Shown: positions 1 through 55,985 of the stretch, one piece after another | Numbering within the stretch: the first letter of the stretch is position 1 | Layout of the letters: each line of letters begins with the position of its first letter | NCBI GenBank assembly: GCA_026399015.1 | Contig: JAPLRS010000031.1 | Span: 1 to 64,000 of the forward strand | Source of the DNA: Methylococcales bacterium | GTDB taxonomy: Bacteria; Pseudomonadota; Gammaproteobacteria; Methylococcales; Methylomonadaceae | Length of the DNA stretch: 64,000 nt | Reading direction: 5' to 3' | Made by a program: the position numbers and the translations under genes | The notes under the pieces: model-generated | The model's input: only the letters and a program-made list of their open reading frames with translations | What the model was told of the DNA's origin: nothing | Database searches by the model: none

Positions 1-2136
1 GCCGAGCAACAACATTTTTTCCATTGGGAATTAGAGTTTGCGGATATCTTTGCTAATAATGGCGGCTTTGATTTGATCTTGGGAAATCCACCGTGGTTAA
101 AGGTTGAGTGGCAAGAAGCGGGGATTTTGGGGGATGCTAATCCGTTGTTCGTGTTGCGTAAGTATACTGCAAGCCAGTTAAATACTTTTAGAGAACAAGC
201 TTTTTCAGAATATCCTCAATTAAAGAAGGATTATTTTGTGGAGTTTGAGCAATCGGAAGGAACGCAGAACTTTTTAAATGCAAAGATTAATTATCCATTA
301 TTGAAAGGTTCGCAAACCAATTTGTTTAAGTGCTTTTTACCACAGGCATGGATGGCAAGTAATGCAACAGGTATTTCAGGTTTTTTACATCCTGAAGGTA
401 TTTATGATGATCCTAATGGTGGATTATTGAGAGCCGCGATTTATCCAAGGTTACGTGCACATTTTCAGTTTCATAATGAAATGGATTTATTTGCTGAAGT
501 ACATCATGCGACAAAGTTTAGCATTAATATATATGCTGCTGATGTTACAGCCCATTTTCAACATCTATCTAATTTGTTTATTCCTCAGACAATTAACCAA
601 TGTTTTGAGCATGATGGTTTTGGTGTTGTACCAGGCATTAAAACCGATGAAGGTAAATGGAATACTCAGGGTCATAAAAGTCGAATTATTGATGTGGATA
701 AAACAAGTCTGGCATTATTCGCCAAACTTTATGATGAAGAAGGGACACCTCCATTACAAGCTCGATTACCCGCTTTACAGTCGGTACAACTACTTCAAGT
801 CTTAGAAAAGTTCGCAAACCAACCTAAGCGATTGGGTGATTTAAAAGAGTCATATCATACGACAGTAATGTTTGATGAAAGTAATTCTCAAAAAGATGGC
901 ACGATTAAGCGTGAAACTAAATTCCCTATATCTATCGAACAATGGATTTTATCTGGTCCGCATTTTTTTGTAGGTAATCCATTCTATAAAACTCCTCGTA
1001 AGATTGTTAAACTCAACTCTGATTATGATGTACTTGATCTAACAAGCTTAACAGATGATTATTCACCTCGAACTAATTATGTACCGGCATGTAAGTCAGA
1101 AGAATATAACAGACGTATACCACAAGTTTCTTGGGTGGAAAAAGGAGAAACTGAAGCAAAACGAGTGACTGAGTATTATAGATATGTAAATAGGAAAATG
1201 TTGAGTCAATCAGGTGAAAGAACCCTGATTAATATTATTGCTCCAAAATATTTATGTCACATTGATGCGGTATTTTCTATTACTTTTAAAGATGCACAAA
1301 CTTTAATAAATTTTAGTGGTTCACTTTATTCTATACCGATGGATTTCATTTTGAAAACCACTGGTAAGGCAACAATGAGAGGTGATACTGCTAGATATTT
1401 GTCTTTAATTGATTTAAGGGCGCAAGGTCAACAAAGAACATTATCTTTGACATGTTTAACCACGCACTACAGAGAACTCTGGCAATCCTGCTATCAACCC
1501 ACTTTTACCCAAGACCAATGGGCAAAATCAGACCCACGTTTACCCAACAGTTTCTTCCAACAATTAACCCCCGACTGGCATCGAAACTGCGCTTTACGCA
1601 CCGATTACAATCGCCGCCAAGCCCTCGTTGAAATTGATGTCTTAGCCGCTATGGCCTTGGGACTGACCTTACTAGAATTACAAACCATCTACCGTGTGCA
1701 ATTCCCCGTGATGCGCCAATACGAACAAGACACCTGGTTTGATAGAGCCGGTCGCATCGTCTTTACCGTCTCTAAAGGTTTAGTCGGCGTTGGCTTACCG
1801 CGTAGAGCTATTAGAAATGACACGGCCTATCAAATCAAAACCCCACCCGCCGACATAAAAGCCCGCTGGTTAGATTGGTGTGCAGAACAGGTCAGCCCTA
1901 AGAATGGTCAATTTGTCATTGATACCAGCGACTGGGAAACTCAAACCGGCGCACTCGGCTGGGAAGATATTCAAACTCTGGATAGAGCCATCGTCGAACG
2001 CACCATACAAGATGACACCGTCCCCAATGGCCCCATAGAACGCGTCATCCAATACGTCGCCCCCTTTGATCTCTGTAGCCGAGAGCAAGACTACCAAACC
2101 GTGTGGCAGTATTTTGAATTGAAACTGGAGCAGTAA
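1..2136 (+). CDS. Adenine-specific DNA methyltransferase, C-terminal part (5' end outside window)
   Basis: The reading frame is open from base 1, so the gene starts upstream of the window. The visible part opens with [14 protein letters not shown] (bases 85-96) is methylase motif IV of N6-adenine enzymes of the Eco57I/type IIG kind. The SAM-binding motif I should lie upstream and is not visible. The roughly 700 residues after NPPW would hold the target-recognition region. Bases about 300-1440 are clearly more AT-rich than the last 650 bases, which suggests a swapped recognition segment. A DUF2442 gene follows after 5 bases, then a giant helicase, so it probably serves as the modification subunit of a defence operon. 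The family call is good; substrate and exact system are inferred. Confidence 0.8.
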
Positions 2137-2141
2137 TTATT

Positions 2142-2429
2142 ATGTTTTTACATGTTACTGAAGCACGTTATTTGAATGCATACTGTATTGAAGTCGCTTT
2201 TAACAATGGTAAAAAAGGCATTGCCGATTTAGTTGATGCTTTAAAAGGCCCTGTGTTTGAACCTTTAAAAAATCCAGAAGCCTTCGCCAGTTTTAAGGTT
2301 GATCCTGATTTGGAAACCATTGTCTGGGAAAATGGCGCAGATTTAGCACCGGAATATATTTATTATCAGACTTTTAAAAACGAGGCGAGTTTACAGGCGC
2401 AGTTTAAGGAATGGGGTTACGTTGGATAA
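2142..2429 (+). CDS. DUF2442 domain protein
   Basis: This 95-residue protein has the compact DUF2442 pattern: an N-terminal strand ending in YCIEVAFNNG, then GIADLVDAL, FEPLKNPEAF, and a late segment around TIVWENGADLAPEYIY. DUF2442 proteins are of unknown function and often sit next to toxin-antitoxin or DNA-modification genes. A GGAG about 10 bases before the ATG supports the start. It lies 5 bases after the methylase and 12 bases before the helicase, so the three are almost certainly cotranscribed. It may be a small accessory or regulator of the complex; no catalytic residues are evident. Confidence 0.75.
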   Translation: MFLHVTEARYLNAYCIEVAFNNGKKGIADLVDALKGPVFEPLKNPEAFASFKVDPDLETIVWENGADLAPEYIYYQTFKNEASLQAQFKEWGYVG

Positions 2430-2441
2430 AAATACTAAACT

Positions 2442-5400
2442 ATGAACCCAAGTGTTTTAGCACAGCAATTACAGCAAGCAGTAAAAGATTATTTACGCTT
2501 AAGTTTTGAAACCACAACGCCCTTTTTTGAGGGCCTGTTAGAGCGGTTTTTAAATACCGACGGCGCTTTGGCTAAAGGGCCTTATCTATCCATTAAGTTA
2601 CCGTTTGAAAAAGGCCAGGGTAATGCTGACTTTTTTCCAGCGGTGCCGATGGCTTTTTCTCCTCATAAGCATCAAGAGATTGCCTTTCAGCGTATTGGAG
2701 TCGATTTTAAATCAACCTTAGTGGCAACGGGTACGGGTTCTGGTAAGACTGAATGTTTTCAGGTGCCTATTTTAGATTACTGCTATCAACATCGCGGTCA
2801 AAAAGGCATTAAAGCGATTCTGATTTATCCTATGAATGCTTTAGCCGCTGATCAGGCGCAACGCTTAGCTAAAGCCATTGCCGACAATCCCAATCTTAAA
2901 AACACGGTAACCGCCGGTATTTATGTCGGTGATAAAGAACAGCATGCCACCACCAATATGGCGCGTGAGCATTTAATTTCTGATAAAGAAACTCTGCGTA
3001 ATAATCCCCCTGATATTTTATTAACCAACTATAAAATGTTGGACTTTTTAATGATCCGCGCCAAAGATCATACACTTTGGGCCGAGAATACAAATACCAC
3101 GCTTAAGTTTTTGGTGGTCGATGAGTTACATACTTTTGATGGTGCCCAAGGCACTGATTTAGCCTGTTTAATTCGAAGATTAAAAGCCCGTTTAGAAACC
3201 CCTAAACAGCATTTGGTCTGTGTCGGTACCTCTGCAACTTTGGGTGGTAAGGATGCAGGACAAAACTTAATCACTTATGCGACGTCTGTTTTTGATGAGT
3301 CGTTTGATGAACATGCGGTTATTACCGAATATCGACAATCTTTAGGTGATTATTTAGCGCCTGAGCCGGTTGAGCATATCAGTTATCCTGCTATAGAAAA
3401 ATTACAATCACTTAAAGCCGATCACTATACAGACCTTGAATCTTACGCATTAGCACAAGCACAGTTGTGGTTTGAATCTTTAACGGGGTTGGATGATGCC
3501 AAAGTCTGGCGCGTTGATTTAGCGAAGCATTTAAAGCGGCATTATTTGTTTCAAAATTTACTACGTCTACTAAAAGGTCAAGTAACGGATTGGACGGATT
3601 TATTAGCGGGTTTTAAACGGTGTTTGGGGGCTCAGCAGGCATTATCCGATGAGTGGGTTGAGCAATTATTAATCAGTTTAGTGTCTTTAATCTCGGTAGC
3701 GAGAGAAGATAAATCGGGGTATTTAGCACCCTTATTAGATGTGCGGATGCAATTGTGGCTTAGGGAGCATTGTCGAGACTGCGGTGCGATGGGCTTTTTG
3801 TCACATAAAGAAGTGGATCAACAAAAAATATCCACAGAATTAAGTGATATCTATAAAAGCTTCTTTTCTCATTCGGCTAAAGCCAGTTTTTTATTTCCAA
3901 TGGCTCAGGTTGAAAGACCTAGGTTTCTTAATGAAAATTTAGATAAGAACTTTTGCACTACTTGCGGATTTTTAAATAACCGATCACAGCATAGCTGTCA
4001 GAATTGTGGTGATGAAAGTTTAGTTTGGGTGCATCAGGCTGATAATACGGCACTGCAAAGTGATGCTACTCTTGGGCAGTCAAATATCATTTCACATAAC
4101 AATTGTCCTTTTTGTGAAAGTAAAGGCAGTTTGATGATCATGGGTGCTCGCTCTACAAGTTTGTCATCGGTGATGGTAGGGCAGTTAAGTTCATCGCGGT
4201 TTAATCGTGATAAACAATTAATCGCATTTTCCGATGGCGTTCAAGATACCGCACATCGTGCAGGTTTTATGGCGGCAAGAACTCGGTCTTATGGTTTTAG
4301 AGTCGCTTTAAAAAAGATCTTGGATAGCGCAGAAGCGGATACATCTTTAAGTGAAATTATTAAGCAATTTAATCAATACTGGTTGGATGCCTTAGGTGAA
4401 TCGGTATTTATCGGTACTTTTTTACCTATAAGCATGGAGTGGATGCGAGATTATTCTGTGTTAAAAAACACGGATAAACTACCTGAAGGTTCTAATTTAG
4501 CAAACGTCTTACAACGGCGTTTGGCCTTTGATATTTTATGTGAGTTAGGCTTTAGATCGCGTATTGGGCGCTCTTTAGAACGCAGTGGTGCGGTGGCTAG
4601 TTATTATAATCAAGCAGAATTAGAGGTTTGTTTAACCCATCTATTAAGCGCATTACAGGAACATATTGGCACCTTAAGAGATGTATCTTTTGAGCGATTA
4701 CATCGCTTTATTTTGGGTTTCTTAGCGCATTTAAGAATGGCAGGTGGTATTTATTCCACAGACTTAGACGCCTATATTTACAATAATGGTGATCCTGGTG
4801 TGTTTATTAATCAAATCGCTTTACCGAATTTTGGCTATGGCACTCGCATTCCTACTTTTATAGGGACTAAAAAAGGTAAGGGCATAGAGTTAATTTCTGC
4901 CTCTACAAATTCCGCTACTACTTGGTACCAAGTTTGGTTAATTAAAGCGTTGTTCTCTGATGATGATTTGCAAGCGAACGGTCATTTATCGGCAGATATT
5001 TATCATTTAATCTTGTTGCATTTAGTTAAAGCTCAGTTTTTGGTAGAGAGGGATACTAAAAATAAAGATACGGTTTGGGGTATTAATCCAGAGCGCTTAT
5101 TACTTAGTAATCAGGTGGCAACGCTCTGTTGCAGCAAATGTAAACACAGTTACTCTGTTGCAGAGAGTGAATTAGGCTTGTGGTTAGATTCTGTCTGTTT
5201 ACAAAAAAGTTGCTTAGGTGTTTATCAACTAAATAAATCGTCCACTGAATCTTTAGATTTTTATGGTCGTTTATATCGTGACGGCGAGGTTAATCGGGTG
5301 GTGGCTGCTGAGCATACGGGTTTATTAACCCGAGATGAGCGGGCAGCGGTTGAAACTTCGTTTAAGAAAACGCCAGAAAATAGGCAGCCCTGGGATATTA

Positions 5401-8400
5401 ATTTATTGTCTGCAACACCGACCCTTGAAATGGGTGTGGATATTGGGGACTTGTCTTCTGTATTGTTGTGTTCAGTACCACCAGCGCAAGCTAATTATTT
5501 ACAGCGTATTGGTCGAGCTGGTCGGCGTGATGGCAATGCTTTAAACATCACCTTAGCTAACGCGGATGCGCATGATCTGTATTTTTACACTGACCCCATT
5601 GAAATGATGGCAGGTGAGGTAGAGGCACCCGGTGTGTTTTTAGATGCCTCTGCTGTGTTAGAACGCCAGTACACGGCTTTTTGCTTGGATTATTGGGTTA
5701 AAAAGTACGCCTTAGCAGCCGTTATTCCGCATAAACTAAAAGACGTTTTAAATACCATTTCAAAACCTGATAGAGCGCTTCATGCGTTCCCGTATTCTTT
5801 TTTAAATGAAGTTGAACAGCATAGAGATGAATTATTTACCCAATTTTTGGGCTTATTTGCTTCGGGCTATGGCATTGGTTTAAGTGCTTTTTCTATTGAT
5901 TGGTTAAAGCGGTTTTCAGAGGGTAATTTTGAAACACAAGGTAGTTTAAGTTTTAGGATTCAAGAAATATTGATGCAACAACATTTAGAAGTTGAATCGA
6001 TGAGTAAAGAAACTAAACGCGTTAATACTGTCTTAAAAACAAAGAAGACTATTGAAACTAAATCTCAACAAGATGAAAAGGAAATTGAAGATTTAGAAAT
6101 CGAGTTAAGTGCCTTACAGGCCGTTGTTAATAGCATTAAAAACCAAGATACCTTACAGTTTTTAACGGATGAGGGCTTAATCCCTAATTATGCCTTTCCT
6201 GAGCAAGGGGTCATTTTACATTCAGTTATTTATCGTTCAAAAAAAGATAATGACAGCGCTGTTAAATTAGCAGGCGTTGATAAAGAATCCGAACGCTGGA
6301 CATATAAATATGAAAGACCCGCCGCGTCGGCATTATCTGAATTAGCCCCCTTAAGTAAGTTTTATGCGGGTGGTCGTCGGGTAGAAGTTAATCGCATAGA
6401 TTTACGAGTATCACAACAAGAAACTTGGCGCTTTTGCCCCGCTTGTCATCATTCTGAATGTATCGATACTGGGGATAATTATCAAACCTGTCCTCGATGT
6501 GGCGATGCTATGTGGGTGAATGTCTCGCAAAAACAAACCATGCTACGCTTAAAACAAGTGTATGCCTCTACAGCAGATAAAAATAGCCGAATTTCTGATG
6601 ATAAGGATGATCGAGATAGTCAGTTTTTTATCAAGCAATTATTAATCGATTTTGATCCTGCTGCGATAACTGCCGCTTATAAGGTAGATAAAGCCGACTG
6701 GCCGTTTGGCTTTGAGTTTATTGCTAAGGCAGATTTTAGGGAGATTAATACCGGCCATAGTGATGAGAATGCCCCTGAAATTACTATTGCTGGCAAAGAG
6801 TCTAAAAGAACTGGATTTAAATTGTGTCATTACTGTGGCACGGTGCAGCCCAATAAAAAGAAGCCTAAAGAGCAAGCACACACTATTAGCTGTACGGCAA
6901 AAAACAAGGACAATGAAAATAATATCATCAGTGGCTTGTTTTTATATCGAGAGTTTCAGTCTGAAGCGATTCGAATTTTATTACCCATAACTTCGGGTAC
7001 TGATGCAGAAAGTGCTGAGTTGTCTTTTATTGCGGCATTGCAATTGGGTTTAAAGAAAAAGTTTGGTGGCAGTATTGATCATTTACGCGTGGCCCAAAAT
7101 GTAGAGCCAGATCCTGAAGATAAAGATCTGAGTAAGCGTTATTTGGTGATTTATGATTCAGTACCGGGTGGTACGGGGTATTTGAAACAATTAACCAGTC
7201 ATCAAGATGATTTAATTGAAGTGTTAACGGAATATGCAATGCCTGTGTTAGAGCAGTGTAGTTGTGTACAAAAGCCTCATGCTGATGGCTGTTACCGGTG
7301 TTTATATGTCTACAAAAATAGCGTTAATATCCAAAATATTTCGCGTAAGAAAGCCCGTGACTTTATTCAAACGCTTAAAGAAAACGCTGACAAAGTAGTG
7401 CCGGTGGCAGGATTGCGTGAAGTTAAGATTTCACCTTTAGTGGAAAGCGAGTTAGAAGCACGGTTTCTTGAGGCCTTACGTAAATTGGGTAACGCGCTTA
7501 AACAAGATCATAAAATCAGTGAATTTGAATGGCGTCCAGAGTTTTATGCGGGTGAAGCAGGTTGGTATATGCGCTTGGGTGAGCAACGCTATTTTATTCG
7601 TAGACAAGTGGAGCTGGGTGCTGAACAAGATGTAGCTATAAAATCGAGAGCTGATTTTGTCATAGTCCCCTTAGGTAATATTAAGTTAAAACCGATTGCA
7701 ATTTTTACGGATGGTTATCAGTATCATAAAGATCGTGTTGCTTTAGATACAGCGCAAAGGATGGCAATTATCGCCTCCAATCATTATTGGGTGTGGTCGT
7801 TAACCTATGAAGATGTGCAAAATATCTTAGATGATAAAACGGCTTTACCGATTGATTTGTTGTTGGGGTTGCCTAATGGTGGCGTTAAACAGTTATTGAC
7901 GCATTTTGATTGTAATGAATTAGTAGGCTTACATGATCAGTCAAGCTTTGCATGGTTAATGAGTGTATTGACCGTAGGCAATGAGACAGTCTGGCAGGCT
8001 TATTCTGCCATGTTAAGCTCTATTTGGTTTAATAAGATGTCGTCCTATATGGATGCTGCAAGTTTTCAGTCTTTGCCAGTATACGCACAGTTAAAACTTG
8101 AATGGTTGAATGAGTCCGCACTTACGAAGGTTGATCTATTAGGGGCATTATGGGGTGATAACTATGCCCGTTTTTATATGTCGATAGGCTTTGATAAAAA
8201 CGCATTACTTAATAATAAAGATTTTACTCAAGTAAGTACGAATTTGGTTTTTGATGATAGACATGAGTTAATTGATTTTGAGGCGGATCTTAAGCAATGG
8301 CAATGCTTTTTAAGATTGATTAATGTTATACAGTTTCAACCCTATAGTGGGTTTTATACTCAAAAAGGCATAGAAAGTTTAGCCTACGATAATCTGATAG

Positions 8401-8738
8401 TTAAGTCTGCTTCACATTCTACATCTACTATAGATAGTATTACAGAGTCCGCTTGGGAATTAATATTAGCGGATGCAGTGGGGACTGAAATTGAATTTAT
8501 TCATCGATTGATCCCATTAAATCTCCCTGTTCCACAGTGTGGTTTTGAATTGTTAGATGACTCAGGTGAAATTATCGCTGAGGCATTTTTAGCCTGGCAG
8601 GATCATAAAGTGGTAATTGTGTATGGGGGCTATGAAACGGATATTGAGACCTTTACTAAAAAAGGTTGGCAAGTTTTTATAAATACTGAGCTGGATAAGG
8701 ATATGCAATCTTTATTAAGTGCTTTCGCTTTGAATTAG
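2442..8738 (+). CDS. Giant DEAD/DEAH helicase with DUF1998-type zinc region and nuclease-like C-terminus (DruE-like)
   Basis: The protein has 2098 residues. Helicase motifs are clear: Walker A TGTGSGKTE near residue 95, DELH (motif II) near 226, GTSATLGG (III) near 262, and QRIGRAGRRDGN (VI) near 1020. Several CxxC pairs are scattered through it (for example CRDCG, CTTCG, CQNCG, CPACH, CPRCG, CHYCG), so it probably binds several zinc ions. Around residues 1560-1630, YDSVPGGTGYL followed by CSCVQKPHADGCYRCLY is the DUF1998 signature. Residues about 1665-1800 (RADFVIVPLG, AIFTDGYQYHKD, VWSLTYEDV) resemble DUF559/Vsr-like restriction-fold endonucleases. Size and order recall DruE of Druantia and the helicases of DISARM, but no other gene here proves either system. 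Probable role: DNA translocation and cleavage in phage defence. Confidence 0.8.
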   Translation: MNPSVLAQQLQQAVKDYLRLSFETTTPFFEGLLERFLNTDGALAKGPYLSIKLPFEKGQGNADFFPAVPMAFSPHKHQEIAFQRIGVDFKSTLVATGTGSGKTECFQVPILDYCYQHRGQKGIKAILIYPMNALAADQAQRLAKAIADNPNLKNTVTAGIYVGDKEQHATTNMAREHLISDKETLRNNPPDILLTNYKMLDFLMIRAKDHTLWAENTNTTLKFLVVDELHTFDGAQGTDLACLIRRLKARLETPKQHLVCVGTSATLGGKDAGQNLITYATSVFDESFDEHAVITEYRQSLGDYLAPEPVEHISYPAIEKLQSLKADHYTDLESYALAQAQLWFESLTGLDDAKVWRVDLAKHLKRHYLFQNLLRLLKGQVTDWTDLLAGFKRCLGAQQALSDEWVEQLLISLVSLISVAREDKSGYLAPLLDVRMQLWLREHCRDCGAMGFLSHKEVDQQKISTELSDIYKSFFSHSAKASFLFPMAQVERPRFLNENLDKNFCTTCGFLNNRSQHSCQNCGDESLVWVHQADNTALQSDATLGQSNIISHNNCPFCESKGSLMIMGARSTSLSSVMVGQLSSSRFNRDKQLIAFSDGVQDTAHRAGFMAARTRSYGFRVALKKILDSAEADTSLSEIIKQFNQYWLDALGESVFIGTFLPISMEWMRDYSVLKNTDKLPEGSNLANVLQRRLAFDILCELGFRSRIGRSLERSGAVASYYNQAELEVCLTHLLSALQEHIGTLRDVSFERLHRFILGFLAHLRMAGGIYSTDLDAYIYNNGDPGVFINQIALPNFGYGTRIPTFIGTKKGKGIELISASTNSATTWYQVWLIKALFSDDDLQANGHLSADIYHLILLHLVKAQFLVERDTKNKDTVWGINPERLLLSNQVATLCCSKCKHSYSVAESELGLWLDSVCLQKSCLGVYQLNKSSTESLDFYGRLYRDGEVNRVVAAEHTGLLTRDERAAVETSFKKTPENRQPWDINLLSATPTLEMGVDIGDLSSVLLCSVPPAQANYLQRIGRAGRRDGNALNITLANADAHDLYFYTDPIEMMAGEVEAPGVFLDASAVLERQYTAFCLDYWVKKYALAAVIPHKLKDVLNTISKPDRALHAFPYSFLNEVEQHRDELFTQFLGLFASGYGIGLSAFSIDWLKRFSEGNFETQGSLSFRIQEILMQQHLEVESMSKETKRVNTVLKTKKTIETKSQQDEKEIEDLEIELSALQAVVNSIKNQDTLQFLTDEGLIPNYAFPEQGVILHSVIYRSKKDNDSAVKLAGVDKESERWTYKYERPAASALSELAPLSKFYAGGRRVEVNRIDLRVSQQETWRFCPACHHSECIDTGDNYQTCPRCGDAMWVNVSQKQTMLRLKQVYASTADKNSRISDDKDDRDSQFFIKQLLIDFDPAAITAAYKVDKADWPFGFEFIAKADFREINTGHSDENAPEITIAGKESKRTGFKLCHYCGTVQPNKKKPKEQAHTISCTAKNKDNENNIISGLFLYREFQSEAIRILLPITSGTDAESAELSFIAALQLGLKKKFGGSIDHLRVAQNVEPDPEDKDLSKRYLVIYDSVPGGTGYLKQLTSHQDDLIEVLTEYAMPVLEQCSCVQKPHADGCYRCLYVYKNSVNIQNISRKKARDFIQTLKENADKVVPVAGLREVKISPLVESELEARFLEALRKLGNALKQDHKISEFEWRPEFYAGEAGWYMRLGEQRYFIRRQVELGAEQDVAIKSRADFVIVPLGNIKLKPIAIFTDGYQYHKDRVALDTAQRMAIIASNHYWVWSLTYEDVQNILDDKTALPIDLLLGLPNGGVKQLLTHFDCNELVGLHDQSSFAWLMSVLTVGNETVWQAYSAMLSSIWFNKMSSYMDAASFQSLPVYAQLKLEWLNESALTKVDLLGALWGDNYARFYMSIGFDKNALLNNKDFTQVSTNLVFDDRHELIDFEADLKQWQCFLRLINVIQFQPYSGFYTQKGIESLAYDNLIVKSASHSTSTIDSITESAWELILADAVGTEIEFIHRLIPLNLPVPQCGFELLDDSGEIIAEAFLAWQDHKVVIVYGGYETDIETFTKKGWQVFINTELDKDMQSLLSAFALN

Positions 8739-8747
8739 GAAATTTTT

Positions 8748-11273
8748 ATGCAACCCAAAGTAGCAATATCGTCAGACTTTTTTAACAGTGTTTTAAAGTT
8801 ACCTAGGACGCAACAAGAAAAAGCGGCTAAGTTAATGGAGACTTTTAGGCTTAATCCTAAATCACCGGGTATTAATTACGAAACCATTCAAGTAGCACGT
8901 GATAAAAACTTACGCTCAGTGCGTATCGATCAAGCTTATCGGGCTATTGTATTAGCGCCTGAAAAAGGTGATGTGTACATTTTATTGTGGGCGGATTTAC
9001 ATGATGATGCTTATAAATGGGCAAGTGATCGAATCTTTAAAATCAATCCTGAAAATGGTGTCTTGCAAATATTAGATACGCAATACGTTGATGAAGCCAA
9101 GCAGATCCAACAATCAGCAGTGGCTCAAGCAAATACCGGTTTATTTACTGATATTAGAGATCGATATTTAGTCCGATTAGGTGTGCCTGAGGAGTTATTG
9201 CCACTCGTTAGGCAAGTATTAAGGCCATTAGATTTAGAAGAATTAAAAGTTAAATTACCTGATGAAGCCTATGAAGCTTTGGCTTTGTTGGCTGATGGCA
9301 TTAGTTTAGAAGAGGTCATGTCTGTTTATGATGTGAGCTTACAAGATACTCCGTCTACTATTGATACTAACGATTTTGCGAGCGCCTTGGATAATCCAGA
9401 TACTAAGCGTCGCTTTTTATTGGCCTCGGATGACGAAGCTTTACAAGCCATGCTAGATGCGCCTTTAGAAAAATGGCGTGTCTTTTTACATCCTTTGCAA
9501 CGGAAGTTGATTTATAGAGATTGGAATGGCCCTGTACGTGTTTTAGGTGGCGCTGGTACGGGAAAAACGGTAGTGGCGATGCATCGTGCTAAGTGGTTAG
9601 CAGAACAAATCTCAGAATCACGCGATACCAAAGTGTTATTTACGACCTATACTAAAAACTTAGCCTTAGATATACAGCAGAATTTAAAACATATTTGTGC
9701 GCCAGAAGTGATGCGTAAAATTGAAGTGATCAGTCTAGATGCTTTGGTTAAACGCTTTATGGAGAAGCACGGTTATAAGATTAATTATACGTTTATACAT
9801 GAAAGTAAAGCCAAAGAGCTTTGGAATAATGCGCTGATTCTTAAGCCTGATGAGGGTAATTTGTCTGAATCATTTTTCAGAGAAGAATGGGATAAGGTGA
9901 TTCAGCCACAAAATATTAATACTTTAGAAGGTTATTTACAGGCCAGACGAGTAGGGCGGGGAGTGCAATTAAACCGTACTATGCGGAAATTGGTCTGGGA
10001 TGTTTTTGAAAATTATCAAGTTGCCTTAAATGATGCAGGTTTAAAAGAAGCAGAAGATGTGTATCGGGATGCTTTAACTTTAATAGAGACCGACAAGCTT
10101 CAAGCGCCCTATTCGCATGTATTAGTGGATGAAGCTCAAGACTTTGGGATGAATGCCTTTCGGTTATTACGCCGCTTAGTGGCCGAAGACAAAAACGATT
10201 TATTTATTGTGGGCGATGCGCACCAGCGTATTTATGGCAGTAAAGTCGTACTGGGGCAATGTGGTATTAAAATCATAGGACGTAGCCACAAATTAAGAAT
10301 CAATTATCGAACCACTGAACAAATTAGACAGTCTGCTGTTTTACTATTAAACGGCATTGCCTTTGATGATTTGGATGATGGTAAAGATGAGCAGTCTGGT
10401 TATCGTTCTTTAATGACGGGTTCAGAACCCCTCATACAATGTTTTGATAATGCGAAAGCCGAAACTGATTTTATTGTGACTTCTTTAAAAGAGTTACCTG
10501 AAGAGTCTTGGCTGAAGTCTTGTATTGCCGTACGCAGACTTAATGACATGGAGCGTTATAAAGTGGCTTTAACTGAAGCTAACATCCCCTTTTACCAAAT
10601 TGATCAAAATACCGTAGATAATGAAAAGCATGCAGGTGTAAGGATCGCCACTATGCATCGTGTAAAAGGTCTAGAGTTTGATTATATGTATGTGGCGGGA
10701 GTTAATGATGGCGTGATGCCGTTAAATTATCTAGATTCTGATGATGTAACCGTTATTAGGGAACATGAGCAAAAAGAACGTTCTTTGCTTTATGTGGCTA
10801 TTACACGGGCTAAACGATTTTGCGCTATTACTGGCTTTGGTAAGATTTCTAAGTTTATAGAGGGGATTGAAAAAGCAGAGGTTACCCCTATGAACTGGAA
10901 ACACCAAAACGGTTACAAAATGACCGGCAAAGTTAGTGGCAAAGAGCGCGAGTTTTATGCAATCTTTATCATAAAGGCCAAAAATGAATATACGTTTATC
11001 TCACCTGCTTATTTGGATCCATGGAATGCTGGAAATTCTGGACATATAGTTGAGGGTGAAATTGTTACAGATGCACGTAATAACTGTATTCTAAGAGATG
11101 AGATATTAGGTACTGAGCTTTTAATTACCCCTTTAGAATCGGACAAACTCAGAAAAGAGTTTGAAATGTTTTTAAATATACACGAACCTATAAGTGGCTT
11201 GCCTAAAAGTGAATATGATCGCAATTTCGAAGGCGAATATAGTCGCCTGTTAAAGGCGTATTCTGCGGAATAA
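8748..11273 (+). CDS. UvrD/Rep-type helicase with N-terminal RelE/ParE-like domain
   Basis: This 841-residue protein starts 9 bases after the giant helicase. Residues 1-105 look like a RelE/ParE-fold toxin module (ISSDFFNSVLKLPRTQQ, SVRIDQAYRAIV, YILLWADLHDDAYKWA). The rest is a superfamily 1A helicase: Walker A GGAGTGKTVVAMHRAKW near residue 268, VLVDEAQDFG (motif II) near 460, GDAHQRIYG, LRINYRTTEQIR, MHRVKGLEFDYMYV and LLYVAITRAKRF. It probably unwinds or translocates on DNA together with the upstream helicase. The RelE-like part may bind nucleic acid or a partner rather than act as a toxin; no antitoxin gene adjoins it. It seems to be the last gene of the operon. Confidence 0.85.
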   Translation: MQPKVAISSDFFNSVLKLPRTQQEKAAKLMETFRLNPKSPGINYETIQVARDKNLRSVRIDQAYRAIVLAPEKGDVYILLWADLHDDAYKWASDRIFKINPENGVLQILDTQYVDEAKQIQQSAVAQANTGLFTDIRDRYLVRLGVPEELLPLVRQVLRPLDLEELKVKLPDEAYEALALLADGISLEEVMSVYDVSLQDTPSTIDTNDFASALDNPDTKRRFLLASDDEALQAMLDAPLEKWRVFLHPLQRKLIYRDWNGPVRVLGGAGTGKTVVAMHRAKWLAEQISESRDTKVLFTTYTKNLALDIQQNLKHICAPEVMRKIEVISLDALVKRFMEKHGYKINYTFIHESKAKELWNNALILKPDEGNLSESFFREEWDKVIQPQNINTLEGYLQARRVGRGVQLNRTMRKLVWDVFENYQVALNDAGLKEAEDVYRDALTLIETDKLQAPYSHVLVDEAQDFGMNAFRLLRRLVAEDKNDLFIVGDAHQRIYGSKVVLGQCGIKIIGRSHKLRINYRTTEQIRQSAVLLLNGIAFDDLDDGKDEQSGYRSLMTGSEPLIQCFDNAKAETDFIVTSLKELPEESWLKSCIAVRRLNDMERYKVALTEANIPFYQIDQNTVDNEKHAGVRIATMHRVKGLEFDYMYVAGVNDGVMPLNYLDSDDVTVIREHEQKERSLLYVAITRAKRFCAITGFGKISKFIEGIEKAEVTPMNWKHQNGYKMTGKVSGKEREFYAIFIIKAKNEYTFISPAYLDPWNAGNSGHIVEGEIVTDARNNCILRDEILGTELLITPLESDKLRKEFEMFLNIHEPISGLPKSEYDRNFEGEYSRLLKAYSAE

Positions 11274-11332
11274 GCTTAATTTTTGTTTCAAAATTATAAT
11301 GCACTTTTGGTTAGCTTATTAAACGGTGGTAA

Positions 11333-12855
11333 ATGGAAACTGACAATATTCATGGTAACAGTGTGGAAAGTATTCAAGAACTCATTGCGCGTGCAAATAA
11401 TGGTTATGTGGATTCACAATTGGTTTTAGCGGCAATGTACCTGTTTGGCGATGGAGTGGATATAGATTATAAAGCAGCGGCTAGTTGGTTTTTAAAGGCG
11501 GCTGATCAGGGTAGTGCAACTGCTCTGAACGATTTAGGTAATATGTACAAAAATGGAATGTATTTTGATCAAGATATCGAGAAAGCAATAGAGTTTTATT
11601 TTAGATCAGCAGAAGCCGGTTGCATACAAGGTAAATTTAACTACGGTTGGGAATTATTAAATTTATCATCTACCGAATATGATACTAATAAAGCCATTGA
11701 GTTTATTGTTTCAGCGGCTGACCAAGGTCTAATTATTGCACAAATTAAACTAGGTATTATGCTTGTAGAGGGTGAATGTTTACCGGTTGATTATGATAAA
11801 TCGTTCAACTATTTTTATTCTGCAGCCTCTGAAGGTGATGCAGAAGCCTTGAATTGCTTAGGCTTGAGTTATGTAAATGGCTACGGATGTGAAAAGAATC
11901 AGGAAATGGCGAATCGATTTTTTCTATAGCAGCTGACAAGGGATCTTCGCAAGCACAATTTAATTTGGCTTGGAGTTACAAGTATGGACTTGCACTTGAT
12001 CGAAATTTAGAGATAGCCTTCTATCTATACTCATTGGCGGCAGAACAAAATCATCCGGGTGCGATACGTGAGATTGGTCAAATGTATGAAGTTGGAACAA
12101 ATGATTGTCCTAAGGATATAGCAAAAGCAGTAGAGCTTTATACACAGGCCGCTGAACTTGGTGACTTTGTGGCAGAATACAATCTTGGAGTATTCTATGA
12201 GTACGGTACAGGTGTAAGTATTGATATCCCGAAATCTGCAATGTATCTTGCTCGTGCGGCTTCTAAAAATCATCCCTCTGCAAATTTCAATCTTGGATTA
12301 TTGTACCAAACGGGTATTGATGGCGAACCTGACTATTTGAAAGCCATGTCTTATTTTGAAAAGGCTGAACAACTGGGTCATAAGAAGGCTTCAGGTGCCA
12401 TTGGTTTTCTATGGTTAAACGGTTTAGGCGTTATAAAAGATACTGTTAAGGCATTACATTATATTGAAAAGAGCGCCGTTTCTGGTGATGAAGCCTCTCA
12501 ATATAATCTGGGGACGCTTTATAAAGGCATTAAGGACATTCCTGATAATCTTACGAAGGTAGTTTATTGGCTGGAAAAATCAGCGCGCCAAGATTTTGCG
12601 GCTGCACAAATTGATCTAGGCATAATGTTTATACTGGGTGAAGGTGTTGAGATTAATAAGGTTGGGGCTGTTAAATGGATTTGCTTGGGGCAAATAAATG
12701 GAGATGCCAGAGGTCTAGAGTTATTAAACTATTGTAAGAGTGAAATTTCTGAAGAATTATTTGATAAGGGCTACAAGCAAGCTCAATTGCATTTAGCGTG
12801 TCTTCAGTCTAAAAACATTGCACCATCTGCTGAGCAACTTAAGTTTATGCACTAA
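11333..12855 (+). pseudogene. Sel1-repeat (TPR-like) protein gene split by one frameshift
   Basis: Two adjoining reading frames, 11333-11929 and 11965-12855, encode successive Sel1-like repeats (patterns such as A..WF..AA.QG...A...LG.MY..G). The first frame ends at TAG 11927-11929 directly after a run of six T (11918-11923). Reading one base back at that run continues without a break as SIAADKGSSQAQFNLAW in the frame of the second part. The intact product would have about 507 residues. Sel1 proteins are scaffolds for protein-protein contacts. No signal peptide is visible. The gene may be truly broken, rescued by slippage, or a homopolymer sequencing error. It follows the defence operon by 60 bases and could belong to it. 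Confidence 0.75.
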
Positions 12856-54465: not shown

Positions 54466-54550
54466 GCCGACGTGGTGGAATTGGTAGACACGCCATCTTG
54501 AGGGGGTGGTGACGCAAGTCGTGCCGGTTCAAGTCCGGCCGCCGGTACCA
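54466..54550 (+). tRNA. tRNA-Leu (anticodon GAG)
   Basis: The 85-base sequence folds into a type II tRNA with a long variable arm, anticodon loop TTGAGGG (anticodon GAG), T arm GCCGG-TTCAAGT-CCGGC, discriminator A and encoded CCA. Position after secG matches E. coli leuU. The acceptor stem GCCGACG/CGCCGGT has a G1-U72 wobble and an A5-C68 mismatch. Its 3' end is the integration site of the downstream element, which may explain the mismatch. Confidence 0.95.
54528..54550 (+). repeat. attL: tRNA 3' end
   Basis: TTCAAGTCCGGCCGCCGG followed by TACCA, from the T loop to the CCA end, is the left copy of the attachment core. Confidence 0.85.
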
Positions 54551-54725: not shown

Positions 54726-55985
54726 ATGGCTAAGCAACTCAATAAAGACGCGGTCTACAGAGCCGCTAAACCAAAAGAAAAGGAATACACTATCAATGAT
54801 GGTGATGGACTTGTTCTATTGATCAAACCAAACGGGTCAAAGTTATGGCGTTTCATTTACCGATTTGGCGGTAAACAAAATAGAATTAGTTTTGGAGCAT
54901 ATCCTAGCGTAACAACACAACACGCAAGGATTAAGGCAGATCAAGCGAGGGAATTACTTTCTAATGACAAAGACCCAGCCGCAGAAAAGAAGCAAGAAAA
55001 ACAATTACAAAATGTTGATGAAGTAAACGCAAAGCGAAAAGCTGAAGGATTGCCAATAAAAAATAGTTTTGCAGATATCACAGCTCAATGGTTAGCGTCT
55101 ATAGAACATTTAACCAAACCCCATACACATATTAAGAAAATATCAAGAATTGAGCGGTTAGCGTTTCCCGTTCTTGGTGATATTCCTATCAATCAGGTTA
55201 GATCATCCGATATATTGGCGGCGTTAAAGCCTTTAATAGATAAGATGCAACTAGAAACCGCTCACCGTTTGCATAGTGAAATAAGCTCAATATTTGCTTA
55301 TGCCATTGTTCATAACTTTACAGACTATGACCCAGCTCAACCTGTAGCTAAGCAGATACCCGCTCAAAAGGTAAAGCATAGAGCCGCCATAATAGAACCG
55401 CAACAAGTTGGTCAACTATTGAGGGATATATACAATTATAAAGGCACATTTATAGTGCAAATGGCTTTTAGGTTTTCACCCTTAGTGTTTCAAAGGCCTG
55501 GAGAGATTCGTCAATTATTGTGGTCAGATATTGATTTAGAGACTAAAGAATGGCGACCATTTATATCTAAAACAGACTTTCACCACATAGTACCGTTATC
55601 AAAGCAAGCCATAGAAATTATAGAGTCCATAAAACCTTTAACCGGCGGCGGTAACTTTGTTTTTCCGTCTAGTCGTGGAGATGGTAGGCCAATGTCGGAC
55701 AACACAATTAGAACGGCTTTAAAGTCATTGGGCTATGATTCTGACGTTATGACTGCGCATGGATTCAGAACAACGGCATCAACACTCCTTAATGAACAGG
55801 GTTGGAGTCCTGATGCAATAGAAAGGCAATTAGCCCATGCCCCCAGAGATCAAGTAAGAGCAGCCTATAACCGAGCCCAATATTTAGAAGAGCGTCGGCG
55901 CATGATGCAATCTTGGGCTGATTATCTAGATAGTCTAAAGAATGGTGCACAAATAATACCTATTAGACATACAGCAAGTTCATAG
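54726..55985 (+). CDS. P4-type tyrosine integrase
   Basis: The 419-residue enzyme has the N-terminal DUF4102 domain (INDGDGLVLLIKPNGSKLWRF, ISFGAYPSVT) and the tyrosine recombinase catalytic domain: Arg in QRPGEIRQLLW near 257, HGFRTTASTLLNEQG (His near 345, Arg near 348), a late His in RQLAHAP, and the Tyr in RAAYNRAQYLEERR near 380-386. It should integrate and excise the element at tRNA-Leu. Confidence 0.96.
   Translation: MAKQLNKDAVYRAAKPKEKEYTINDGDGLVLLIKPNGSKLWRFIYRFGGKQNRISFGAYPSVTTQHARIKADQARELLSNDKDPAAEKKQEKQLQNVDEVNAKRKAEGLPIKNSFADITAQWLASIEHLTKPHTHIKKISRIERLAFPVLGDIPINQVRSSDILAALKPLIDKMQLETAHRLHSEISSIFAYAIVHNFTDYDPAQPVAKQIPAQKVKHRAAIIEPQQVGQLLRDIYNYKGTFIVQMAFRFSPLVFQRPGEIRQLLWSDIDLETKEWRPFISKTDFHHIVPLSKQAIEIIESIKPLTGGGNFVFPSSRGDGRPMSDNTIRTALKSLGYDSDVMTAHGFRTTASTLLNEQGWSPDAIERQLAHAPRDQVRAAYNRAQYLEERRRMMQSWADYLDSLKNGAQIIPIRHTASS

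Follow-up and report, generated by a model that had tools for sequence, protein, structure and literature searches.

A probable ARMADA type II operon in a Methylococcales bacterium, with a DUF2442 gene in an apparent cargo slot between armB and armC

The stretch of Methylococcales bacterium DNA analysed here (hereafter the window, meaning the whole stretch of 64,000 nucleotides, bases 1-64000 of contig C36 in a genome of 2.7 Mb, 47 contigs and 86% completeness) begins with four tandem plus-strand open reading frames (ORFs) separated by gaps of 5, 12 and 9 bases, in agreement with the initial annotation of four packed genes with 5-12 base gaps. Very probably, these genes represent a member of the ARMADA type II defence family cut at its left end, in which the joint between armB and armC serves as an internal cargo slot and a small DUF2442 gene is the auxiliary cargo of that slot. 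Since base 1 of contig C36 falls inside armB, the 5' part of this gene and the genes upstream of it lie out of reach.

ARMADA type II has been described as a system of a BrxHII-like helicase (ArmA), a PglX-like methylase (ArmB), a YprA helicase (ArmC) and a RelE-GajB protein (ArmD) (Bell et al., September 2025 preprint, PMC12458937). In E. coli it protects against 13 of 80 phages, infected cells stay viable, and deletion of any one of the four arm genes abolishes protection; the type II gene order is called strict, and cargo is not mentioned in the available part of the preprint (PMC12458937). Because the order and families of armB, armC and armD in the window agree with this published system, the operon is, by sequence comparison, assigned to ARMADA type II, with ArmA unseen beyond the contig boundary. 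Its membership of a defence-system family, already proposed at the outset, is borne out by this match.

The partial methylase that opens the window matches the Eco57I methylase family of Pfam, carries an NPPW motif at residue 29, and is assigned in PADLOC-DB 2023 to the type IIG methylases (475 bits), with DrmMI as a weak match. It is 62% identical to residues 944-1558 of the E. coli-plasmid ArmB, the C-terminal part being the one compared, so that on this part a PglX-like methylase stands directly upstream in the operon, as in the published system. The giant helicase gene combines DEAD, Helicase_C and MZB (an MrfA-type zinc domain) in one protein with the motifs GTGSGKT and DELH, and its best PADLOC matches are DruE models, in keeping with the DruE-like character first attributed to it. 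Its best solved relative is the 2108 aa chain 9tu7_Y, titled "DEAD/DEAH box helicase" (E=4.5e-50), and alignments that span its full length give 36.7-39.5% identity to the plasmid copies from Nostoc, Aulosira, Pseudanabaena, E. coli and Klebsiella. On these profile matches and plasmid copies it has the architecture expected of ArmC, namely a large single protein that joins a YprA-family helicase to a zinc domain at the C-terminus. An active Vsr-type nuclease is predicted at the ArmC C-terminus (Bell et al., PMC12458937), which would fit the "helicase-nuclease" label of the initial annotation. As a separate observation, the matching parts of armC in two same-genus genomes (L141 in G126:C37, near 10580, and L143 in G125:C173, near 178) end at the same codon, window position 3128, and continue into the same foreign sequence, which is probably an insertion element.

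The last gene of the operon contains the N- and C-terminal UvrD domains of Pfam with the motifs GGAGTGKT and DEAQD, its UvrD part matches the GajB models of PADLOC, and its four closest named relatives come from Methylococcaceae/Methylococcales metagenome bins (87-93% identity), which makes a methane oxidiser of the Methylococcaceae the most likely host. The RelE-like half of the fusion is recognized through homologues. The N-terminus of the window protein alone gave no Pfam match at E<=1; the HigB-like toxin family PF05015 is matched by 30 of the 45 N-termini in the homologue set, which includes that of the window (best 4.6e-6), and ParE-like matches occur in 21 of the 45 (best 0.0013). Furthermore, a profile of 29 ArmD N-termini aligns almost end to end with 1wmi_A (database title: hypothetical protein PHS013), which we take to be an archaeal RelE; this match is weak (E=0.041) and ranks behind five other weak, seemingly unrelated hits. 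With modest confidence, these homologues suggest a RelE-like domain, consistent with the RelE-UvrD fusion named in the initial annotation, whose UvrD/GajB part is clear. Residues E45, R59, R65, I67, H85, A88 and W91 are invariant among the 29 N-termini; the catalytic residues of YoeB are E46, R65 and H83, so that the ArmD N-terminus is possibly an active RNase. At the other end of the protein, same-genus relatives align only up to residue 704-708; the C-terminal extension (about 135 residues) has no Pfam match at E<=0.01, and one of 31 other ArmD proteins is of similar length (833 aa). Apart from the operon, most of the loci L053-L114 belong to a large RelE-UvrD family with identities of about 27-34%, and many come from Alphaproteobacteria; most have no ArmC match in the flank retrieved, and these ArmD-like proteins apparently lie outside ARMADA.

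The annotated E. coli plasmid locus shows the same ARMADA II order with no spare bases between genes, and similar DNA is found in 525 of 5426 complete E. coli genomes. Of the 60 matches listed (the query's own record included), 57 show the E. coli block at its usual 13.4 kb; the other three are a block with an IS3-family transposase, an incomplete match and a short fragment. The order methylase, giant helicase, RelE-UvrD protein recurs in many other genomes, and on contig G116:C96, from the same genus, armA and armB are followed by cargo and the beginning of armC. The conserved gene order supposed earlier therefore holds for these three genes and does not extend in general to DUF2442. The four genes had also been taken for an undefined, possibly new defence type. 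PADLOC-DB 2023 has no single system covering them and no ARMADA model among their matches, and the locus seemed a new combination because this database splits it into type IIG methylase, DruE and GajB. However, three of the four families, in order, define ARMADA II, and DUF2442, the one gene outside the defined type, was detected in 4 of 34 loci. A new defence type was thus rejected in favour of the ARMADA II fit and is exceedingly improbable.

The evidence for a slot comes from 46 loci, which were reached through likeness to ArmC or ArmD and not through slot content. With a junction scored as occupied when longer than 250 bp, armB/armC (B/C) was occupied in 22 of 34 loci, armC/armD (C/D) in 0 of 39 (largest 177 bp) and armA/armB (A/B) in 3 of 26, giving Fisher values of 2e-10 for B/C against C/D and 5e-5 against A/B, with loci treated as independent although related. 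Among the 22 loci in which all three junctions were measured, B/C exceeded 250 bp in 12, C/D in 0 and A/B in 3. All 13 loci from the window's order, which represent 12 genomes, are occupied at B/C, and occupied junctions are also found in other Proteobacteria, in Arcobacter caeni (L165), in Nostoc (L138) and on Haematobacter plasmids (L168, L171); the pattern is strongest near the window and is not confined there.

These counts depend on several conventions. L140, in which the block order is C-D then A-B, was left out of the B/C count and kept in those for A/B and C/D, and loci with no armB visible beside armC (L126, L148, L152, L051, L125, L143, L144, L105, L048, L132 and L040) were likewise left out. 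For L151, whose contig has only 42 armB residues, the B/C junction was set manually to 5514 bp. The A/B gap of L124, roughly 0.86 kb, was excluded as its armA piece fell under the identity filter, and its inclusion would give 4 of 27. L139 (200 bp, no ORF picked) was scored empty and the window (305 bp) occupied, ORF starts were allowed to shift upstream, which makes small negative gaps approximate, and one genome (G116, 74% complete, 4% contaminated) contributes a locus on each of two contigs, which perhaps represent separate copies or strains.

The same joint also behaves as a module boundary, because no A-B block was found before armC in genome G261 and the C-D block precedes A-B in Cylindrospermopsis. 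In G261, no armA or armB was found within 11.6 kb upstream of armC. The locus itself (L125, G261:C18, 1022-18068) has a gene for a 2626 aa sacsin/HSP90-like protein and a DrmD helicase gene (1060 bits) directly before armC-armD, and is, as judged from its gene content, a putative hybrid of ARMADA with a DISARM-type helicase. In Acetivibrio, a 1177 aa ORF before armC gave no match in a family scan.

Cargo content varies between loci, and in 15 of the 22 occupied loci at least one gene belongs to a toxin-antitoxin or defence family (L142 and L145 by likeness to scanned loci). For instance, VapB with PIN (L131), Phd with PIN (L130), DUF3368 (L160), PemK together with DUF2442 followed by Fic (L146), and DUF2442 with Fic, UPF0175 and DUF3368 (L124) were found. 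Other slots hold the PADLOC candidate PDC-S68 split in two ORFs (L122), a GmrSD-family gene (L127), an AbiL/PDC-M38-like ATPase with DUF3226 and PIN (L129), Schlafen AlbA_2 (L133), YhcG nuclease with DUF2442, a helicase, DprA and PIN (L141), or two dynamin-like GTPases with HipA (L151), and that of Arcobacter caeni (L165) holds a complete PsyrTA system, PsyrT and PsyrA with AlbA_2 (952 and 436 bits). Altogether 63 cargo ORFs were picked with the minus strand down-weighted by 0.6; 59 of them lie on the operon strand, to which the picking is biased, and only plus-strand ORFs were scanned. The Pfam scan covered 40 of the 63 (the window's DUF2442 among them) and one HipA ORF chosen by eye, and, leaving the window's DUF2442 aside, 28 of 40 scanned proteins match at E<=1e-4, one of them (ParA of L150) under its cut-off. 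Ten cargo proteins were scanned with PADLOC.

Occupied and empty versions of the joint exist between similar flanks. One ArmD record (WP_018065927.1) and the same neighbours are common to Haematobacter pOT1-7 and Martelella pMM259, and a 282 aa gene is present at B/C in the former and absent in the latter. In Nostoc, B/C holds a small gene (annotated 185 aa), whereas the joint is empty in Aulosira, whose ArmA is 97% and whose ArmB is 81% identical. The window and L141 share 99.2% DNA identity in armB, 93.7% in the start of armC and 90% in DUF2442, and L141 exceeds the window by about 1.1 kb upstream of DUF2442 and by 4 kb downstream of this gene. The 282 aa gene occupies 11126-11974 in both L168 and L171, between armB and armC of two Haematobacter plasmids, and the L168 protein gave no Pfam or PADLOC match.

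The DUF2442 gene lies 5 bases from armB and 12 bases from armC, and no DUF4160 gene adjoins it. DUF4160/DUF2442 has been described as the toxin-antitoxin pair DhiTA, with DhiA as the DUF2442 member (PMC8198452). The window protein matches DhiA weakly, far under the cut-off. Within the genus, DUF2442 occurs in 32 of 35 genomes with up to 11 copies each; of 20 copies chosen for neighbour inspection, 19 gave an ORF, 12 of these have a DUF4160-like ORF upstream by eye (Pfam confirming 9 of 9 submitted), and for the twentieth a DUF4160-like ORF is visible on its longer contig. Among arm loci, DUF2442 was found in the above 4 of 34 by tblastn with the window's copy, a search that diverged DUF2442 could escape. 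The four slot copies (window, L124, L141, L146) have intact frames, and their pairwise dN/dS values (0.046/0.413, 0.069/0.77, 0.179/1.219, 0.08/0.599, 0.167/1.288 and 0.183/1.396) lie at 0.09-0.15; because of these low values, the slot gene is seen to be under purifying selection and kept. Viral contigs with DUF2442 were sought and no relative was confirmed, and a search of solved structures gave nothing convincing for this protein. A core ARMADA role was rejected on account of the few loci with detected DUF2442 and of the E. coli system, which works without it; a DUF2442-DUF4160 module was rejected as the operon has no DUF4160, and a partnership with Fic, the next gene in L124 and L146, was not kept, the window having no Fic and the Fic of those loci presumably carrying a self-inhibitory stretch. 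The preferred interpretation of the window gene is an orphan cargo gene of antitoxin type, outside the ARMADA core.

Several points weigh against this overall picture. The window ArmC lacks 35 residues before HCRDCG that are present in 7 of 7 homologues compared, a deletion that may mean that the window copy is impaired or misassembled; it and the ArmD extension could each be adaptation, decay or assembly error. A same-genus ArmA query against the window's own assembly, which is 86% complete, found a best match of 28% on another contig, and the BrxH model matches 12 places in this genome and also matches in 14 of 14 control genomes. The 250 bp threshold was chosen after the data had been seen, the slot signal peaks in the order of the window (9 of 21 loci occupied outside it), and the E. 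coli copies have no B/C cargo. In addition, 7 of the 22 occupied loci (L128, L138, L150, L153, L159, L168, L171) have no convincing defence assignment, and two L153 ORFs resemble lipoproteins.

Part of this bears on the suggestion that the slot is an effect of sampling or assembly among related genomes and fragmented bins, as 13 of the 22 occupied loci come from one order, many are bins, G116 enters twice and the threshold is post hoc. The same loci, however, yield no occupied C/D junction, annotated plasmid records show both occupied and empty states, and the complete PsyrTA of Arcobacter caeni is among the loci occupied outside the order, so that such an artefact is very unlikely. DUF2442 might instead be a functionless leftover of a toxin-antitoxin module or larger cassette: it is followed by Fic and further toxin-antitoxin-like genes in L124 and L146 and by about 4 kb of cargo in L141 and stands alone in the window, and two of the copies in the window's own genome (in the window and on C45) show no DUF4160 beside them. 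The low dN/dS, the intact frames and the tight spacing to both neighbours speak against decay, although dN/dS averages all branches and would hide a very recent loss in the window alone; this explanation appears unlikely.

On the opposite reading, the system of this lineage has a working fifth part, and DUF2442 would restrain the RelE-like ArmD domain as its antitoxin or safety catch. Such a reading would draw on the antitoxin family to which DUF2442 belongs (DhiA, partner of DUF4160; PMC8198452), on the conserved charged residues of the RelE-like domain, and on a gene that is under purifying selection and recurs in four Methylococcales slots. Against it, 30 of 34 loci have no detected DUF2442 although ArmD is the usual downstream neighbour, the four arm genes are functional in E. 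coli without DUF2442 (PMC12458937), its usual partner in the genus is DUF4160, and an 11.9 kb contig of G137 bears a 93.7% identical copy with no arm genes around it. A fifth component is accordingly judged improbable, and an auxiliary cargo gene in an ARMADA II slot remains the preferred reading.

Compared with known systems, the window resembles ARMADA type II in its tight packing, its gene order, the NPPW of ArmB and the kept Walker motifs of ArmC and ArmD, and differs from it in the extra DUF2442, the shorter ArmC, the longer ArmD and an ArmA not visible at the contig end. Druantia (types I-IV) shares the DruE-like helicase, but the window has a methylase and a RelE-UvrD gene, and neither DruH, which stands beside DruE in type III, nor any other Dru protein is among the PADLOC matches listed, which for ArmC and ArmD extend to 25 families. 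DISARM class 1 likewise combines a methylase with a YprA-family helicase (DrmMI and DrmA are weak matches); in the window, however, the helicase core and MZB/DUF1998 zinc domain are fused and a RelE-UvrD gene is added, whereas DISARM has separate DrmA and DrmB, and neither DrmB nor the DrmC nuclease is among the PADLOC matches listed for the four proteins. Similarly, the UvrD part of ArmD recalls GajB of Gabija, yet it has a RelE-like N-terminus, and the OLD-type nuclease GajA is absent from the same matches. DhiTA shares the DUF2442 domain and differs in the adjoining DUF4160, present at most genus copies inspected. Precedents for a second module inside the operon of a first system are BrxU inside BREX (PMC8565348), auxiliary effectors and nucleases embedded in BREX operons (PMC12839542), and DarTG2 between hsdS and hsdR of a type I restriction-modification system (PMC12255303, which cites a 2024 preprint on embedded defences). 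Here ARMADA II is the system that receives the module, and nearly all cargo goes to a single one of its three joints. Among the papers listed on ARMADA and on embedded defence, titles and abstract openings describe no embedding in ARMADA; nesting as such is known in BREX and type I restriction-modification.

Table 1. Features of the operon at the left end of the window.
Feature	Position	Strand	Basis
ORF1, armB, C-terminal 711 residues, PglX-like adenine methylase	1..2136	+	Pfam Eco57I, NPPW; open at left edge
armB/armC junction (apparent cargo slot), 305 bp, DUF2442 as sole gene	2137..2441	+	Junction census
ORF2, DUF2442 protein, 95 aa, antitoxin-family cargo gene	2142..2429	+	Pfam PF10387
ORF3, armC, YprA/DruE-like giant helicase, 2098 aa	2442..8738	+	PADLOC DruE; Pfam DEAD, Helicase_C, MZB
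ORF4, armD, RelE-like domain and GajB-like UvrD helicase, 841 aa	8748..11273	+	Pfam UvrD; PADLOC GajB; homologues downstream of armC
ArmD RelE-like N-terminal domain, about residues 1-118	8748..9101	+	PF05015 in homologues; 1wmi_A
ArmD C-terminal extension, about residues 705-841, without family match	10860..11273	+	End of relatives' alignment

To the right of the operon lie two Sel1-repeat ORFs and then two opposite-strand ORFs, which presumably correspond to sbcC and sbcD. Further along, a tRNA-Leu (54466-54550) is followed by a tyrosine integrase (54726-55985) and low G+C (0.30-0.35) at about 55-62 kb, a stretch that is probably an integrated element.

By analogy with E. coli, the ArmB methylase and the ArmA, ArmC and ArmD helicases would together stop phage DNA without cell suicide. 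The B/C slot would accept, exchange and lose small modules in operon direction, frequently toxin-antitoxin pairs or complete additional defence systems, which would then be co-transcribed with the operon and could act as backup or through addiction; DUF2442 itself would most likely have an auxiliary role, as an anti-toxin (anti-addiction) protein or a repressor, selected but dispensable for ARMADA. More tentatively, B/C may be a permanent docking site that selection keeps available and recombination between its conserved flanks fills anew, and whose interchangeable co-transcribed modules back up ARMADA against phages that disable it; we consider this possible without favouring it. With these results, the locus moves from a combination of unknown type to a named system, ARMADA II, and a preferred internal slot would be a property that the available part of the founding preprint does not mention (PMC12458937). 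If ARMADA II has such a slot, its contents form a ready list of candidate defence genes, among them the unassigned 282 aa protein of the Haematobacter plasmids, a 280 aa protein in G758 and a 285/770 aa pair in G159. The slot would also let backup, addiction and passenger roles be told apart, because it occurs in nature both filled and empty between closely related flanks.

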